This document shows, in pieces, positions 26,333 through 33,590 of a DNA stretch of 42,967 bases (position 1 is the stretch's first letter; the number at the start of each line of letters is the position of its first letter). Origin of the DNA: an uncultured Chloroflexota bacterium (GTDB taxonomy: Bacteria > Chloroflexota > Dehalococcoidia > GIF9 > AB-539-J10); NCBI GenBank assembly GCA_903884455.1, contig CAISEW010000055.1, forward strand, positions 1-42,967, in the 5' to 3' direction. The position numbers and the translations under genes were made by a program. The notes under the pieces were generated by a model. That model saw nothing but the letters and a program-made list of their open reading frames with translations, did no database searches and had not been told where the DNA came from.

Positions 26333-29300
26333 ATGATAGAGCAGCAAAGAGTCTATCGTATCAAAGACTTGGATTCTTTGTTAGGTTTCCTGCGAGAAGA
26401 TTTGTGCTGGGATTTACCGGAAGCTAGTATTGATGATGTTTCCTTCGAATGGACCGGACTGGATCTGAACCTATCAGAAGATGTCAATGAAAAGCTTAAG
26501 GATGGGTTGATACGTCAGTTACAGCCTTTTGCCACTGATCAACCCTGGGGAATCTTCGTCGTTGAGTTCGTCACCCGTGAAGTCTCAATCATAACCTTGC
26601 GGCAAATACTCCGGTGCTTTGTAGCCAAAAGGCGCAGTGCCCGGCCTGATCTCCCTGCCTGGCAATGCGAGAACCTTTTGTTCATCTGCGTCTATGGCGA
26701 GAACGGTTTCACCTTTGCCCATTTCAAGGGAGATAACCCCTATTCCTCGAAGTTGACCACATTCAGCTGGCATCCTGGGGAGCCTATCCGGACGGTCTGC
26801 GAATTTAACTTGCCAGCGCTTGTCTACGATTACACCTGGACACCTGAGACCTGGGTTGAAGAATGGCAGAAAGCCTTCGATGTCGAAAAGGTCAATAAAG
26901 ATTTCTACCGGCAAATCGCCCGGTTCTTCTATCGCCTTACTGGCAAAGAGGGACACCCGCGGGAACTCGTGCTGCCATACGTCGGGGATGATTTGGGTAG
27001 CATCAATATCTACGAAGAGTTTGCGATACGGCTCATCGGCCGGTCTATCTTCTGCTGGTTCCTTAAGCACAAGGTGTCCGAAGAATCCAATGTGCCACTG
27101 ATTCCTCCGGAAGCGCTATCGCTGGCTGCCGCCCGAGAGACGGAAGACTTCTATCACTCTATGCTGGAACCTCTTTTCTTCGAAGTGATGAACAAGCCGT
27201 TCAAAGACAGAAAATCCCTTCTGGTTCCCCGGTCGGAGATAATTCCGTTCCTCAATGGCGGCCTCTTTGAACCCCACTCCAACGACTTCTATCCAGGCGT
27301 CGCGAATTACGGGTTGAAGATATCATCTGCATGGTTCATCGACTTCTTCAGCCTCCTCGAGAGGTACAACTTCACCATCACGGAGAACAGTAGCATCGAT
27401 GTTGATGTGGCGGTTGACCCGGAAATGCTCGGCAGAATATTCGAAAACCTGCTGGCCGAGTTGGTGCCGGAGACTGGAGAGACTGCACGAAAGGCTACTG
27501 GGAGCTATTACACCCCGCGTGCCATCGTGAATTATATGGTGCAGGAATCGCTAAAGCAGTATTTGCTCACCAACACCACTCTCGCCGAGGAAAAGGTCAG
27601 CCGGCTACTCGGTTACGGCGGGGATGTCGAGGACTTTTCCACAGAGGAAAAATTGGCGACGGTAACTGCCCTGAGGGACATAAAGGTTATCGATCCGGCC
27701 TGTGGCTCGGGTGCTTTCCCCATGGGCGTACTGCACCGTATGCTGGCGATGCTGGAAAAGGTAGATCCGAGGCTTGAGTTATGGAGAGCGCAGTATTTGA
27801 AATCGCTCGATGGTATCGTGCGACAGACCGTGGAGAAAAACATCAGCCGTGAAAACTGGGCTTATATTCGCAAGCTGATGATAATCAGGGACTCTATTTA
27901 CGGAGTGGATATCCAGCCGGTTGCCGTGGAGATTGCCAAGCTGCGGTGCTTCCTGTCTCTGGTTGTGGATGAAATCATTATTGACTATGAGGAAAATCGC
28001 GGCGTTGAGCCACTGCCTAACCTAGAGTTCAAATTCGTGGCCGCGAACACGCTTGTGGGCTTGCCCTCCGGCGTAAGCCAGAGCGCCTTTGGGGTTACGG
28101 CTACAGTGAATAAGCTCAAAGGATTAAGAGAAGATTACCTACGTAGTTTTGGGGCAGAGAAGTCGCAGATTGAAGAAGAATTCCGGGCCACCCAACAAAA
28201 ACTGTTCGCGGAAAACGTACAGTGGGCAGTTGCGGATACACTTGTGAAACGGCTAACCGAATGGGATCCGTTCTCCTACGAATCCTGTAGCTGGTTTGAC
28301 CCGGAGTGGATGTTTGGTGTGAAAGGTGGGTTTGACACAGTGATTGGAAACCCGCCCTACCTCGAAGCTAGGCACCCGACCTTCTCGGAACAGCGAAAGC
28401 AAGAGTGCCGGACCGGAATCAATCAACGGTGGGGATCATTGGCATCAGGCATAACGCGCGGGTCAGACTTACTGGTGTACTTCATTGAAACGAGCGTGCA
28501 TATGCTTGCGGAGAAAGGCACCGGTGTCCTACTAACCCAGAACGCATGGCTGGATACTCTGTACGGCAAAGCCCTGCAGGAATTCCTGATGAAGACCACA
28601 AATGTGATTGCGATAGTTGATAGCGACTTCAAGTATTTTGACAGCAAGGTAGGGCCCAATATAAATACAATCATTTGTGTTTTCCATGGTAGATCTCCAC
28701 AGCCATCCCGTACTCTTAAATTCTTACGCTTCCACGAAAGTTTCGACGCATTACCAGTTAGCCACGACTTTGAGATTCTTAAGGGCTTAGGAAAAGTTGA
28801 TTATTCCCAGTATAGGTATTCTGACAGCCTTCTTCACGATGCTAAATGGGGGATACTATCAGGCATAGAAGATTGCCTTCTGCAGGTGTTAAAGGTTCTT
28901 CAACGGAATGGGAGCCAAATAGAGCGTATTCCGCGGCGAACCATTACGATCGGGCAGGGACTGAATCTTTCCTCCGCTCATATAGTGCATGCTGAAACTG
29001 CTAGTGATTATCCATACTTGGAATCTGCCCTGATTCCTTTCATGACCGAGGGCGCGCCGTATGTACTAGACCATGTCGGCAGTTTTCTGGTTGATGGATC
29101 CAAATTGAACACGCGAGAAAAGGCCGCACTTAGAGCTGCCGGAATTCTCCCGTTTGACGTAAAGTCAACAACAAAAGAACGCCCAGCACTCATCATGCCC
29201 CGTGGTGTGAGCCGTCACTTCTGTGCATTAAATCAAGTACACGCATTCTCCTCTAGCTTTGTTGATATTTATGACATTAATAGAGAAGAATTACTGAATT

Positions 29301-29653
29301 CAGATGTAATCCTAAACTTGTGGTTGATATTGAATTCGTCCCTAGCATGGCTCCTTCGGGAGGCCGGTGGTCGTAAGAACTTGGGCGGTGGCCTGTTGAA
29401 AGCTGAAGCTGCAGATCTAAAGCAATTTCCCATCTATTTTGACGTTGGCAACCTCAGGGCTATCCAAGCGATTTGCGATAGGGTTGCGGGCAGAGAGGTA
29501 TTGGAGACACCAGAAGAACTGGACACACCAGAGCATAATGCCATCGATGACTTGGTATTTCGGAAGCTGAATATCACTGAAAAGCTAAGGCACGAAATTG
29601 TTGACTGTTTGAAGAGAAGGATATCGGTACGCTCTTCAAAATCGACCACTTGA
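26333..29653 (+). CDS. Eco57I/COG1002-like adenine-N6 DNA methylase
   Basis: 1106 residues. SAM-binding motif I is VIDPACGSGAFPMG (~452-465), catalytic motif IV is VIGNPPYLEA (~670-679), and a pre-motif segment TGSYYTPRAIVNYMV precedes them. These are the hallmarks of gamma-class adenine methylases in type IIG, type I-like, BREX and DISARM systems. The C-terminal third resembles a target-recognition domain (GLNLSSAHI, then KNLGGGLLKAEAADLKQFP). The first ~350 residues are not recognised; I saw no clear PD-(D/E)XK motif, so nuclease activity may lie in the PLD domain upstream. A GAGGT site precedes the ATG. It starts 10 bp after the helicase stop and the next gene follows 10 bp after its own. 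Confidence 0.85.
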   Translation: MIEQQRVYRIKDLDSLLGFLREDLCWDLPEASIDDVSFEWTGLDLNLSEDVNEKLKDGLIRQLQPFATDQPWGIFVVEFVTREVSIITLRQILRCFVAKRRSARPDLPAWQCENLLFICVYGENGFTFAHFKGDNPYSSKLTTFSWHPGEPIRTVCEFNLPALVYDYTWTPETWVEEWQKAFDVEKVNKDFYRQIARFFYRLTGKEGHPRELVLPYVGDDLGSINIYEEFAIRLIGRSIFCWFLKHKVSEESNVPLIPPEALSLAAARETEDFYHSMLEPLFFEVMNKPFKDRKSLLVPRSEIIPFLNGGLFEPHSNDFYPGVANYGLKISSAWFIDFFSLLERYNFTITENSSIDVDVAVDPEMLGRIFENLLAELVPETGETARKATGSYYTPRAIVNYMVQESLKQYLLTNTTLAEEKVSRLLGYGGDVEDFSTEEKLATVTALRDIKVIDPACGSGAFPMGVLHRMLAMLEKVDPRLELWRAQYLKSLDGIVRQTVEKNISRENWAYIRKLMIIRDSIYGVDIQPVAVEIAKLRCFLSLVVDEIIIDYEENRGVEPLPNLEFKFVAANTLVGLPSGVSQSAFGVTATVNKLKGLREDYLRSFGAEKSQIEEEFRATQQKLFAENVQWAVADTLVKRLTEWDPFSYESCSWFDPEWMFGVKGGFDTVIGNPPYLEARHPTFSEQRKQECRTGINQRWGSLASGITRGSDLLVYFIETSVHMLAEKGTGVLLTQNAWLDTLYGKALQEFLMKTTNVIAIVDSDFKYFDSKVGPNINTIICVFHGRSPQPSRTLKFLRFHESFDALPVSHDFEILKGLGKVDYSQYRYSDSLLHDAKWGILSGIEDCLLQVLKVLQRNGSQIERIPRRTITIGQGLNLSSAHIVHAETASDYPYLESALIPFMTEGAPYVLDHVGSFLVDGSKLNTREKAALRAAGILPFDVKSTTKERPALIMPRGVSRHFCALNQVHAFSSSFVDIYDINREELLNSDVILNLWLILNSSLAWLLREAGGRKNLGGGLLKAEAADLKQFPIYFDVGNLRAIQAICDRVAGREVLETPEELDTPEHNAIDDLVFRKLNITEKLRHEIVDCLKRRISVRSSKSTT

Positions 29654-29663
29654 TGATGGAGAC

Positions 29664-30275
29664 ATGCCTATGGAAATCGAATATACCATTTGTCAAATTC
29701 AGTCCGGCGAGATTTCACTAGCGGCCAAGACTCATAGACGACTGGATGGCGACCCACGTTTAGAGGTAAGGCTCACTCGAGGTCGGGTTACTTGGAGACT
29801 GCTTAATCTCGTGGACGGCACGCCAGAGACTTTGGTAGGAATGCCACGCCGAAACCATGTTGACTTCTATTTTCTTTATGAGAATCTGAAGAGCTTACTT
29901 GCGGGGTTTCCTCGTCCAACTGTGCCAGCAAATCCTGATTTGCGACTATCCGCCGTTAGTTCAGCCGGCACGGAGCGTCAGGGAGGTAAGCGAGTACGCA
30001 TTGTTGTGCCGGTACATCGCTACCCCTTGCTCTCGGTAGAACTGCATGTGGTACAAGCTCCATCCTTTTCTGCTACAGGAATCGAACCATATATGCACAT
30101 GGATGTCGAAAGCACCCCGACTGGCTTGTACGGTGGAGAAACCTTTGAGATCCATTTTGGCATTCAGGCTAACTTTGAGATAACAGGACCATTTTCGGGT
30201 AGTATGAGTAGTGCACTCATCCAGATGCAGCCGGACGTATATGCTACCGTACATAGTGACATGAGGTATCTATAG
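29664..30275 (+). CDS. Unrecognised protein in methylase/helicase row (203 aa)
   Basis: I do not recognise a family. The 203-residue product appears largely beta-stranded, with alternating hydrophobic stretches such as RVRIVVPVHRYPLLSVELHV and FEIHFGIQANFEITGP, and no cysteine cluster, membrane segment or nucleotide motif. A GGAGA site lies just before the ATG. It begins 10 bp after the methylase stop, so it is almost certainly cotranscribed and a candidate component of the same system. An in-frame ATG six bases downstream is an alternative start. Confidence 0.65.
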   Translation: MPMEIEYTICQIQSGEISLAAKTHRRLDGDPRLEVRLTRGRVTWRLLNLVDGTPETLVGMPRRNHVDFYFLYENLKSLLAGFPRPTVPANPDLRLSAVSSAGTERQGGKRVRIVVPVHRYPLLSVELHVVQAPSFSATGIEPYMHMDVESTPTGLYGGETFEIHFGIQANFEITGPFSGSMSSALIQMQPDVYATVHSDMRYL

Positions 30276-30399
30276 ATACTGCCAGGGCATTTGGAACCAT
30301 CCTTCAGTTTGAAATAATCCTTATGAGGGAATCCCAACAGACGCCGTGCTAACTAATCCGCTAGAAATCGCGTAATATAGTTTTTGGAGGTTCTCACAA

Positions 30400-31110
30400 A
30401 TGAATATCAAGGACGTCACGCTGAGTAAGATAGCGATGGCCGGGTTCTTGTTCAACTCTCTCACCCCTTATAACACTTCGCTCGTGAATTTCAGATCTGC
30501 TATCGGCGATCGATTGGACCTCTCCATTCAAGAGCATCGCGCCGCCCTGATGAACTGGTTGAACGACTGGGGGTGTAGACACCTTTCGAAAGGTCAACAC
30601 CAAGTTGCGTCTAAAAATATTTCGGAGTGGTATAAACAGGATTGCGCTACTTTGTTTAGCGATAAGACCCCTCTTTGGCAACTTAAAGATCAAGAAACTG
30701 AGGCTGCTGCTAATGCTTACGGTTCCCTTAAGGACAGGATAGGGGCACGGCGGTCTCGCTATGGCAATGAATCAGAGGTCCATATTGGCCCAACCGCAGC
30801 CTCCAAAATCCTCTTCGCCATCAGGCCGAAGGCGTTGATGCCCTGGGATGAGGCAATGCGGGAAAGCTTCAAATGTGATGGTAGTCCTAAATCGTATTTC
30901 AAGTACCTGAAGATAATCAGAGATCTTACTTTACACATCGGCGACCTATGCAGGAATAAAGGGTTCCAAATTGACGACCTTCCCCAAAAACTGGGGCGAC
31001 CAAATTCCACAGTGCTGGCACTTGTCAACGAGTATATCTGGATCACCGAGACAAGGAAGATTGAACTGCCTTCATCGGAAACACTCACGCAATGGGCATC
31101 GCTCGGTTAA
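30400..31110 (+). CDS. Unrecognised protein at end of methylase/helicase row (236 aa)
   Basis: The 236-residue product is basic and helical in appearance. A central motif IGPTAASKILFAIRPKALMP is followed by WDEAMRESF, loosely reminiscent of helix-hairpin-helix segments in DNA-repair-like proteins; that resemblance is weak and not a family call. A strong TTGGAGG site (ending 30390) precedes the ATG by nine bases. It is separated from the 203-residue gene by 124 bp containing a TAATAT box, so it may have its own promoter. The stop codon is two bases before a hairpin-forming repeat. Confidence 0.65.
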   Translation: MNIKDVTLSKIAMAGFLFNSLTPYNTSLVNFRSAIGDRLDLSIQEHRAALMNWLNDWGCRHLSKGQHQVASKNISEWYKQDCATLFSDKTPLWQLKDQETEAAANAYGSLKDRIGARRSRYGNESEVHIGPTAASKILFAIRPKALMPWDEAMRESFKCDGSPKSYFKYLKIIRDLTLHIGDLCRNKGFQIDDLPQKLGRPNSTVLALVNEYIWITETRKIELPSSETLTQWASLG

Positions 31111-31112
31111 CA

Positions 31113-31173
31113 CCGCGAATTCCAGGGACATCATACTAATCAGGCCTGCTACAAATCAGGCATTATGCCGCGG
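31113..31173. repeat. CGCGAATTCC hairpin repeat, copy 1
   Basis: It begins CCGCGAATTCC and ends CCGCGG, with an inner hairpin GCCTG (31144-31148), loop CTACAAAT, CAGGC (31157-31161). It is about 85% identical over ~53 bp to the copy at 32143. The outer arms CCGCG (31113-31117) and CGCGG (31169-31173) also pair. It sits two bases after the 236-residue gene. Confidence 0.7.
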
Positions 31174-31490
31174 AGTCTTGTACCTAAAGTAATGCTTCAT
31201 TCACTTGCTCATTTTGGGGTGGCTGCGCAGGTTTGCGATTATTTGAACGATAAATAACCCGAGCATAGTGAGCCCCCTCTCTAGTCTCTAGCCTCCAGCC
31301 TCCAGCCCCTAGGCTGTTTGGCATTTAGGCATTTGGGCTTCGTTTGTCATTTGAGCTTTCGCATTTGAATTTCGTCTATTAGTCGAGCTCTTCTACTGAC
31401 TACTGGCTCCTGACTACTGTCTACTGTCCACTACGCGCCAATTTCCCCTTGTTCGAATAAACAATTCATGTTAATCTCTGCTTAGAACTC
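31174..31490. repeat. Low-complexity word repeats
   Basis: Nothing coding is seen. It holds CCTCCAGCCTCCAGCCCC-type words (~31270-31312), TTTGGCATTTAGGCATTTGG-type words (~31316-31375) and ACTGACTACTGGCTCCTGAC-type words (~31393-31432). These look like degenerate short tandem words rather than a defined element. Confidence 0.55.
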
Positions 31491-31907
31491 GTGTGTTGCC
31501 CTGATAAATCAAATCCCGCGGGTGAGGTTTCTCAAAACCTGACTGCAAATCAAACACAGATTAAAAGGAAGCGCGGTGGCCAGAAAGGCAACCGGAATGC
31601 CCGCAAACATGGCTTCTATTCCGGTACCCTTAGCCCTGCCGAAACATCCCAACTGTGGAACATTACGAATCTGGAAGGCGTTGACCCTGAAGTAGCGTTC
31701 ATTCGCGTCAAGTTACAGTCTTCTCTTCAGTACAACCCTGGTAACCGCCGCGTAATCAGAGAAGCCTCCAGATTACTCGTAAAATGGTATTCTGCAAATT
31801 ACCGGTTGGACCCGACCGACCGCAACTACCTGAAAACTGTTGTCGAGAATCTTTTGGGAATTGCCTCCATGCGTCAGTCCGCCAGCGCCCACGGCTCGCA
31901 AATATAA
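31491..31907 (+). CDS. Small hypothetical protein with GGQxGNxNAxKHGFYS motif
   Basis: A 138-residue basic protein. The diagnostic segment is RGGQKGNRNARKHGFYSG (residues ~28-45), a motif I associate with small hypothetical proteins scattered in anaerobe genomes and resembling the N-terminus of some phage small-terminase-like proteins. The remainder is helical and ends NYLKTVVENLLGIASMRQS. The start is a GTG without a clear ribosome site; no in-frame ATG precedes the motif. It lies between the two copies of the hairpin repeat, which hints at a mobile or repeat-borne gene. Function is unknown. Confidence 0.6.
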   Translation: MCCPDKSNPAGEVSQNLTANQTQIKRKRGGQKGNRNARKHGFYSGTLSPAETSQLWNITNLEGVDPEVAFIRVKLQSSLQYNPGNRRVIREASRLLVKWYSANYRLDPTDRNYLKTVVENLLGIASMRQSASAHGSQI

Positions 31908-32350
31908 AGGGCAAACCGACGAAACGAATCGTGTGTACTTTAACAATTGAATCCGCCGGAGGTAATCGTCTTACGTATGAAAAAGAGCTGTTGAACTCCC
32001 GAAAAAACAGCCATTTTTGCAGAACGAATCATCCCGGCCTCCCCCATGTTCTGCCCCCTATGAGCCAAATGACAACATTCTTCGCATATATGCTCGGAAT
32101 GACAGGAATGGCCGGGGATCTGGCAATGACACGCCGCTAGGACGCGAATTCCGGGGACACCATACCAATCAGACCTGCTACAAATCAGGTATTATGTCCC
32201 CAGAATACCACAAGGACGTAGCTCCCAAATGTGCGTTGCACTTTCCTTACGATTGCGCAAGGCAGAGAAAGGCCTTAGTTAGAGGAAAATGTGTATTCTG
32301 GGTCATTTAAGTAGCAACTGATGCCCATTTGAAGGTTCAAGAACGGAAAT
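31908..32350. other. Gene-free stretch with repeat remnants
   Basis: No credible gene is seen. At ~32090-32130 the words GCTCGGAATGACA and GGCAATGACA resemble the TCATTGCGAG repeat family. The second hairpin repeat lies at 32143-32206. The open frames here run through the repeats. Confidence 0.45.
32143..32206. repeat. CGCGAATTCC hairpin repeat, copy 2
   Basis: This copy keeps long pairing. ATTC (32148-32151) pairs with GAAT (32203-32206), GGGGAC (32153-32158) with GTCCCC (32196-32201), and ACCTG (32173-32177) with CAGGT (32186-32190) around the loop CTACAAAT. The inner stem differs from copy 1 by a paired change (G-C to A-T), so pairing is preserved. Confidence 0.7.
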
Positions 32351-32380
32351 TTGACAAACTATTGACGGATGTGGTAGTAT
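32351..32380 (+). promoter_or_regulatory. Promoter of candidate noncoding RNA
   Basis: Consensus TTGACA (32351-32356), an 18-bp spacer and TAGTAT (32375-32380). RNA would begin near 32387, exactly at the 5' arm of the closing helix of the candidate RNA. Confidence 0.55.
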
Positions 32381-32386
32381 TAAGAT

Positions 32387-32502
32387 TGTCCCAAGCAACC
32401 GAACAGGAAGTTGGTGGACGATGAACCGAGACTGAGTAGGCGGAAGTCGAAAGGATGAGGGGAGGAAGCCAAAGAGAGGGAGGTTGCTTGGAGCACTTTT
32501 TT
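32387..32502 (+). ncRNA. Candidate GGA-rich structured small RNA with terminator
   Basis: CCAAGCAACC (32391-32400) is perfectly complementary to GGTTGCTTGG (32482-32491). Beyond a C/A mismatch, TGT (32387-32389) can pair with GCA (32493-32495), and TTTTTT follows at 32497-32502. Inside, TTGGT/ACCGA (32411-32415, 32425-32429) and GACT/AGTC (32430-32433, 32445-32448) form small hairpins with GGA in or at their loops. About eight GGA triplets occur in ~115 nt. The strand is purine-rich and has no coding frame of note. GGA in loops is typical of CsrA/RsmE-binding RNAs, but no such regulator is visible, so the function is open. Confidence 0.45.
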
Positions 32503-32605
32503 GTGGCATCCATAACCATCTCTGCTTCCTGCGAGCAAGTCTTTACAGATTGCTTCATTCTTCTGACGCGGAACTTTATCCACTCATCGGACTCGCCCGT
32601 TATCG

Positions 32606-33040
32606 TCAGGCCTGGCTCCTGGCTGTGGCGTCTGCTTTTTCTATGAACTTCTCTGCTGAAGCGATAACCGCTTTAGCTCCGGACTGAGAAAATTCAGCCT
32701 CGTAATCGGCAGCTTGACGGAGGTTCATGGCATTGAGTAAGTCCCGAACTAACTGAGCGTCCATTTTACCTTCGTCTACGAATAGCGCCCTCAAGGCTAC
32801 AGCCAGGCAGTAGTGGCTCTTCTCACGGTAACCCTGGGAGTAGACAAGCGCTCTGGCAGCATGAAACATCGCATAATAGCCTTGAATAGTTGACCACTTG
32901 TATCGCTCATTTTCATAACCTGCTTTTGCATCTGCCAGGTCACTTCTGGCGACTGAGAGCTCCTTCTTAACCAGTTTTTTGCCTCTGGCGAAGGAAACAA
33001 TCTTCTTGCTTTCGAGACACTGTTTAAACTCTTGATTCAC
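32606..33040 (-). CDS. HEPN domain protein (toxin-like partner)
   Basis: A 144-residue HEPN-fold protein. The signature is YYAMFHAARALVYSQGY followed by REKSHYCLAVAL, as in HEPN proteins paired with minimal nucleotidyltransferases. Such proteins act as RNases or RNA-binding toxins neutralised by the partner. A clear R-x4-6-H catalytic motif is not obvious (only REKSH), so catalysis is uncertain. Its start overlaps the end of the nucleotidyltransferase gene by 17 bp, so the two are coupled. Confidence 0.8.
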   Translation of the reverse strand: MNQEFKQCLESKKIVSFARGKKLVKKELSVARSDLADAKAGYENERYKWSTIQGYYAMFHAARALVYSQGYREKSHYCLAVALRALFVDEGKMDAQLVRDLLNAMNLRQAADYEAEFSQSGAKAVIASAEKFIEKADATARSQA

Positions 33041-33590
33041 TTCTAGCCCTTTCCCATAATACTATGCCACGCTCAACTTCTTCCATGAAAGTCTGCTCTG
33101 ACTCCCCTCCCTCCAATAGCTCGACAGGCGTTCTAATCACTGACTGAATATTAATATTCTCAAATCCCCTGGGGAATGCGAAATTACTGACAACATTTGA
33201 CACGTCCTTTTTGTTGTTAGATACGACGAATAAATCTAAATCACTCTCCGAATTATCTGTCCCAAGAGCACAACTACCGTACAATATTATGCGGCTTGAC
33301 ATCTTCTTCAGTTCTTCTACTAGCGGTTCAATCAGCATGAGATTTACCATTTTCTTGAACTCTGTAAGGGCGACAGTCGAAGAATCAATAGAATAGAAAT
33401 ACATTTTCCCCTCTCGTCGGCGCTTAATTGCACCGGCAGAATATAAGTCTTTGACGGCACGGTGTGCCGAGCCATAACCTATGCTAAGCTTGCGGGCGAT
33501 TTCTCTTTCATAGAATTCCCTATCCGCGAACTTGGCAAGAAAGCTAAGGACTCTTTGGTTAACCGTAACAATAATATGTGTGCTCAACAT
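33024..33590 (-). CDS. Winged-HTH minimal nucleotidyltransferase (MNT, antitoxin-like)
   Basis: 188 residues. Residues 1-75 are a winged helix (EREIARKLSIGYGSAHRAVK) and ~98-188 are a Pol-beta-like nucleotidyltransferase with the motif YGSCALGTDNSESDLDL (Gly105-Ser106, Asp117, Asp119). MNT partners of HEPN proteins can add nucleotides to the toxin. The attached DNA-binding domain suggests that this one also represses its own promoter, where a palindrome covers the start site. It is followed by the overlapping HEPN gene. The role is inferred from the pair. Confidence 0.82.
   Translation of the reverse strand: MLSTHIIVTVNQRVLSFLAKFADREFYEREIARKLSIGYGSAHRAVKDLYSAGAIKRRREGKMYFYSIDSSTVALTEFKKMVNLMLIEPLVEELKKMSSRIILYGSCALGTDNSESDLDLFVVSNNKKDVSNVVSNFAFPRGFENINIQSVIRTPVELLEGGESEQTFMEEVERGIVLWERARSESRV

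Follow-up and report, generated by a model that had tools for sequence, protein, structure and literature searches.

The window analysed here, 42,967 nt of contig CAISEW010000055.1 from a Dehalococcoidia MAG, contains one member of what we take, at a probability of roughly 0.6, to be an independently transcribed and highly structured small-RNA family with a home gene convergent to hpt, the window copy being a relocated short-form extra in a defence-type island. That this is a real, conserved RNA gene we hold with high confidence. Comparison of the copies establishes homology, promoter conservation, covariation of the closing helix, distribution, and hpt synteny, and the family combines the marks of an independent structured noncoding RNA gene: a conserved promoter of its own, a terminator-like 3′ end, and a covarying structure. 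Judged from the sequences, the family spans Chloroflexota, with members of about 115 to 200 nt and one of about 245 nt, and it is often multi-copy. The parts of the gene are listed below, where R1 is a covariance model built from the aligned blastn copies and R2 is a class-wide covariance model.

32351-32380, plus strand: promoter, with the −35 box TTGACA at 32351-32356, an 18-nt spacer ending in TGTGG, and the −10 box TAGTAT at 32375-32380.
32387-32502, plus strand: RNA gene body, short form, about 116 nt (R1 match 32378-32504, 132.3 bits; R2 match 103.6 bits).
32388-32400, plus strand: 5′ arm of the closing helix, GUCCCAAGCAACC, from covariation and the inverted-repeat search.
32482-32494, plus strand: 3′ arm of the closing helix, GGUUGCUUGGAGC, from covariation and the inverted-repeat search.
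32411-32415, plus strand: 5′ strand of helix 2, UUGGU, partner of GCCAA at 32468-32472 (CUUGGC/GCCAAG in the long-form homologue).
32468-32472, plus strand: 3′ strand of helix 2, GCCAA, partner of UUGGU at 32411-32415.
32434-32438, plus strand: 5′ strand of an internal loop, GAGUA, opposite 32449-32452 (AGTARG is enriched among copies).
32449-32452, plus strand: 3′ strand of the internal loop, GAAA, opposite GAGUA at 32434-32438.
32439-32448, plus strand: apical hairpin GGC-GGAA-GUC, whose long-form equivalent is a GGAA/GGAA symmetric internal loop.
32497-32502, plus strand: run of six T; other copies also have T-rich 3′ ends.

The TTGACA-18-TAGTAT promoter that an earlier note had read from this DNA is present, with a TG preceding the −10 box in the manner of an extended −10 element, and with 10 of 12 matches it is the best promoter-like site found within 1.2 kb by a promoter scan. 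The RNA would begin about 7 nt past the −10 box, which is the 5′ end of the closing helix because pairing reaches G32388/C32494, so that the predicted start does fall where the note had placed it. Its 10-bp closing arms are likewise found, at 32391-32400 (CCAAGCAACC) and 32482-32491 (GGTTGCTTGG), as are the six T; pairing out to G32388/C32494 contains one C·A mismatch, and the inverted-repeat search of the window returned arms at 32382-32400 and 32482-32500. The closing helix together with the T-run at 32497-32502 is a probable intrinsic terminator, and with a loop of about 80 nt it goes unlisted by a simple scanner for ordinary hairpin terminators.

Taken by itself, the window sequence is weak evidence for an RNA gene. 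The single-sequence fold of the window RNA, with a z-score of −1.16 against shuffles, is not better than chance, and the roughly eight GGA triplets that had been remarked upon, of which we count 8, compare with 5.15 expected, a number that about 8% of shuffles reach; this excess is only slight, an A/G-rich sequence yielding about as many. Unlike the single-sequence fold, the comparative evidence is far beyond chance.

Among 100 genomes, counting the source genome, blastn detected the element in 16, most of which belong to the same genus (a Dehalococcoidia group). With R1, the RNA was found in 49 of 52 family genomes, covering all 15 genera, often in several copies per genome; the source genome has five (C41:91987-92161, the window copy on C55, C4:480-637, and two in C16). 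A covariance search in relatives, which had been proposed as a check, thus gave 132 bits for the window RNA and homologues throughout the family and beyond it. Across class samples, R1 matched 57 of 294 genomes and R2 54 of 197, and of 301 genomes sampled from the phylum R2 matched 30, with 21 of them outside the class; in all of these counts the covariance-model E-values are rough, the genome sets are samples, and many of the genomes are MAGs. The many class genomes lacking a match imply either a patchy distribution or sequences that have diverged too far for R1 and R2 to recognize, and by phylum-wide we mean occurrence in several Chloroflexota classes, not in every genome. A few of the MAGs show visible cross-contamination. 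The case in point is G005:C58 (L042) and G034:C37 (L041), nearly identical stretches in genomes of different assigned genera, a near-identity that suggests MAG cross-contamination or transfer.

The promoter is conserved along with the RNA. Exact TTGACA stands at the expected upstream distance in 62 of 65 copies, outside the model, and these copies usually carry a TGTGN-TANNNT extended −10 element. Among the phylum-search matches, 14 of the 17 places inspected have TTGAC at 23-25 within the 50 nt upstream; these are the main matches, a few of them class members, and they leave out two weak secondary matches and the near-identical copies L146, L149, and L150. Queried with the Hpt domain, tblastn placed hpt near the RNA in 36 of 77 loci, and in 35 of these 36 the two are convergent, mostly within 450 nt of each other; the convergent loci include six from a family in another class. 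Because the −35 box and the hpt gene order both lie outside the models and nevertheless agree, they confirm the homology of the distant matches. The hpt gene encodes a fusion of a GAF domain with a phosphoribosyltransferase (hypoxanthine phosphoribosyltransferase); in the GAF-fused example at L089:8227-9672, the middle region has no Pfam match. Judged by its sequence, the gene that follows hpt in many loci looks like one for a class II ribonucleotide reductase.

Since the convergent gene order has been kept, including in another class, the position beside hpt is likely the ancestral home locus of the RNA. The long-kept convergence may be functional, through a shared terminator or through hpt read-through acting as antisense, or it may be an old accident of gene order. 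The end of the convergent hpt gene often lies within 20-450 nt of the RNA 3′ end, as would suit a purely cis-acting element, either a bidirectional terminator or part of the hpt 3′-UTR, but copies far from hpt, the window copy included, have their own conserved promoter and the interior modules are conserved, and we regard this explanation as very unlikely.

The structure was tested on 27 long-form copies, mostly hpt-locus orthologs, with a rod of 35 pairs. In this set, 93.1% of cells are paired versus 34-44% in slid controls, a margin that is somewhat overstated in that the rod derives partly from the same 27 sequences, and 13 pairs show two-sided changes versus 7.2 in shuffles, with 0 of 500 shuffles reaching 13. 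The closing helix (helix 1) gives the clearest covariation signal. Divergence of its arms without compensation, named beforehand as the observation that would speak against the gene, was not what the relatives showed: 97.4% of the cells in this helix are paired, and compensatory changes occur at 4 pairs (exchanges of C-G with U-A, A-U with G-C, and U-A with C-G). The interior helices are less certain than the closing helix, being short and in some cases poorly paired across species (77.6% for helix 4). The conserved elements of the interior are the G·A-rich modules AGUA/GAAA, GGAA/GGAA, and AAGGUA. The unpaired segments depart from random sequence: over 84 copies, with counts inflated by related sequences, GGNGNRAGYN-type segments occur in 60 versus 8.2 expected from shuffling, AAGGUA in 48 versus 5.7, and AGUARG (AGTARG) in 44 versus 11.3. 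Going by known RNA motifs, the facing strands AGUA and GAA may make a bulged-G/loop-E module, and two facing GGAA strands may make tandem G·A pairs, the GGAA being a tetraloop in the short form and occurring twice in the long form, where it pairs with itself.

The conserved modules bear on two proposals about what the purine-rich interior might bind. The earlier note had likened the RNA to sponges of the CsrA/RsmE type, in which GGA triplets presented in hairpin loops titrate CsrA, and the window RNA does resemble CsrB/RsmY-type sponges in having several GGA triplets, 8 in all with one inside a tetraloop hairpin. The check on CsrA that it had called for went against this idea: PF02599 was found in 0 of 60 relatives, the source genome included, while 3 control genomes were positive. 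The CsrA core ANGGANG occurs in 42 of 84 copies versus 41.5 expected from shuffling, indicating no selection, and in relatives the looped GGAA is replaced by GAGA or GATA without loss of the loop or its flanking helix. In contrast to the known sponges, then, this RNA belongs to a clade lacking CsrA and does not conserve its GGA; barring an unrecognized CsrA-like protein, the sponge is refuted for this clade and scarcely credible overall. The other proposal, that the RNA imitates a Shine-Dalgarno sequence and pairs with the 16S anti-SD or with C-rich parts of mRNAs, would draw on the high purine content (71% on average) and on the presence of GAAAGGAGG in 6 of 84 copies, but GGAGG occurs in 48 of 84 versus 47.2 in shuffled sequences and AGGAGG in 10 versus 18.2, so that neither is selected, and the odds of this reading are slim indeed.

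Comparison with known RNAs agrees with the statement in the note that the element does not resemble SRP RNA, 6S RNA, or tmRNA. Searches with Rfam 15 gave no match for the window RNA, the genus copies, the class copies, or the phylum matches, and neither ARAGORN nor Rfam identified the window RNA as a tRNA or tmRNA. SRP RNA lies elsewhere, RF00169 matching other loci in 28 of 30 genomes searched (C41:157433-157532 in the source genome), though this RNA shares with small SRP RNA a purine-rich rod and, in the short form, a 3-bp stem with a GGAA tetraloop. A weak R2 match of 12.7 bits to a 5S gene beside the real match in L153 was treated as chance, the window RNA having no cmscan match to 5S. PF17209 (Hfq) and PF05731 (TROVE, the Ro60 partner of Y RNA) were each found in 0 of 25 relatives, with positive controls; the absence of Hfq, CsrA, and TROVE from the relatives searched argues against an ordinary Hfq-dependent sRNA, a CsrA sponge, and a Y RNA. 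The raiA-motif (ModT), as described in PMC11706538, is comparable as a structured RNA class recognized by comparative genomics and found clade-wide, and the present RNA differs in its lack of an Rfam match, its rod architecture, its hpt synteny, and its Chloroflexota distribution.

A close analogy is with 6S RNA (RF00013), which is likewise its own transcription unit of about 120-200 nt forming a rod with a closing stem, and for the present RNA a regulatory function would be similarly plausible. Membership in the 6S family is rejected. RF00013 gives neither a gathering-score match nor one at E ≤ 10 to the window RNA. Among 148 class genomes, Rfam 6S turns up in just 4 (G090, G120, G123, and G143, one of them below the cut-off), all of which carry this RNA at a different place, and R2 gives no match at the true 6S loci L129-L132. 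Whether it might be a functional counterpart of 6S and Ms1, one that tunes transcription by binding RNA polymerase as holoenzyme or core, is a separate matter. The similar length, rod, and closing stem, the strong promoter, the phylum-wide and often multi-copy occurrence, and the failure to detect Rfam 6S in 60 of 60 close relatives would all fit such a role; the coexistence of the two RNAs in all four 6S-bearing genomes speaks against it, as do the predicted loops, which are symmetric and purine-rich where 6S has a large asymmetric central bubble. On balance we think a 6S-like role rather unlikely. Ms1 RNA of mycobacteria, as a clade-specific RNA that could fill a 6S-like role (PMC4191392), is likened here by role alone, with no relation seen in sequence or structure.

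In the reading that we prefer, that of an independently transcribed structured RNA, a strong extended −10 promoter would start the transcript at the first base of the conserved 13-bp closing helix, and the closing helix with its U-run would end it. The interior would form an unbranched rod of short helices between purine-rich internal loops of G·A type (AGUA/GAAA, GGAA/GGAA, and AAGGUA), and the resulting abundant and stable RNA could act in trans by offering these loops to protein, serving like 6S or Ms1 as a regulator or scaffold, with the purine loop modules and the conserved helix ends as putative protein-binding surfaces. Action through a protein we consider reasonably probable. RNA polymerase is a first guess at the partner and a doubtful one, given that genomes with true 6S also have this RNA. 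Tentatively, as a whole picture, the RNA might be ancestral to Chloroflexota, its rod forming a dedicated RNP with RNA polymerase, the ribosome, or another core machine, and it may have been linked to hpt since the classes split and duplicated in cassettes that run from promoter to terminator.

The copy in the window is an additional one, the home locus being that next to hpt: similarity to the relatives that have the DUF2851 gene in common with the window ends at about 33772, and the two copies most similar to the window copy, L031 and L032, match it over no more than about 240 bp, beginning at the −35 box. The window copy adjoins a defence-type island at 26333-33590, and the features around it are as follows.

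26333-29653: Eco57I-like methylase of the defence-type island.
32533-32588: downstream segment common to L031 and L032; the other surroundings of the copies differ.
32606-33040 and 33024-33590: HEPN/nucleotidyltransferase pair of the defence-type island.

The 56-bp segment at 32533-32588, downstream of the terminator and conserved in three copies with otherwise different surroundings, is a REP-like candidate. A selfish or mobile RNA repeat, spreading from promoter to terminator as one cassette, could account for the up to five copies per genome, for the clustered copies on G049:C18, for homology of L031 and L032 to the window that runs only from the −35 box to about 32588, and for the position of the window copy beyond the point where synteny with relatives ends. 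Against this, the hpt-convergent home position is stable across classes, no transposase-type gene was recognized in the recurrent neighbour clusters (only part of which are annotated), and 16 IMG/VR viral contigs that carry the 15-nt core motif gave no covariance-model match; we judge such a repeat improbable. No plasmid copies of the RNA were found. Several local arrangements were also seen: three copies cluster within 1 kb at G049:C18:3183-4148, a tandem array of about 66-bp units lies upstream of the copy in G011 (L031:1530-1978), and G016:C20 (L092/L093; the contig also of L015/L016) has two identical mirror-placed copies with identical neighbours, this 47406-bp contig looking like an inverted self-duplication and being probably an assembly artefact.

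The family is apparently undescribed, no description of it having been found in the article text searched on Dehalococcoides and Chloroflexi noncoding RNAs. A 2024 survey of 50 genomes reports a motif from Dehalococcoides (PMC11109978), and an unnamed earlier sighting of this RNA, for example within the motif lists of that survey, is possible. Chloroflexota are poorly served in this respect, with Rfam 6S in 4 of 148 class genomes and with CsrA (n = 60) and Hfq (n = 25) lacking in the near relatives searched. To our knowledge, few noncoding RNAs are conserved at phylum scale, and an RNA that is present in multiple copies, has a promoter close to consensus, and keeps its gene order with hpt across classes offers a concrete handle on RNA-based regulation in Chloroflexota. 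Finally, the class-wide search gave a candidate hpt-convergent ortholog in G130, a single-contig genome of 1.36 Mb that appears Dehalococcoidaceae-like, so that tests of the RNA in a cultured organism may be feasible.
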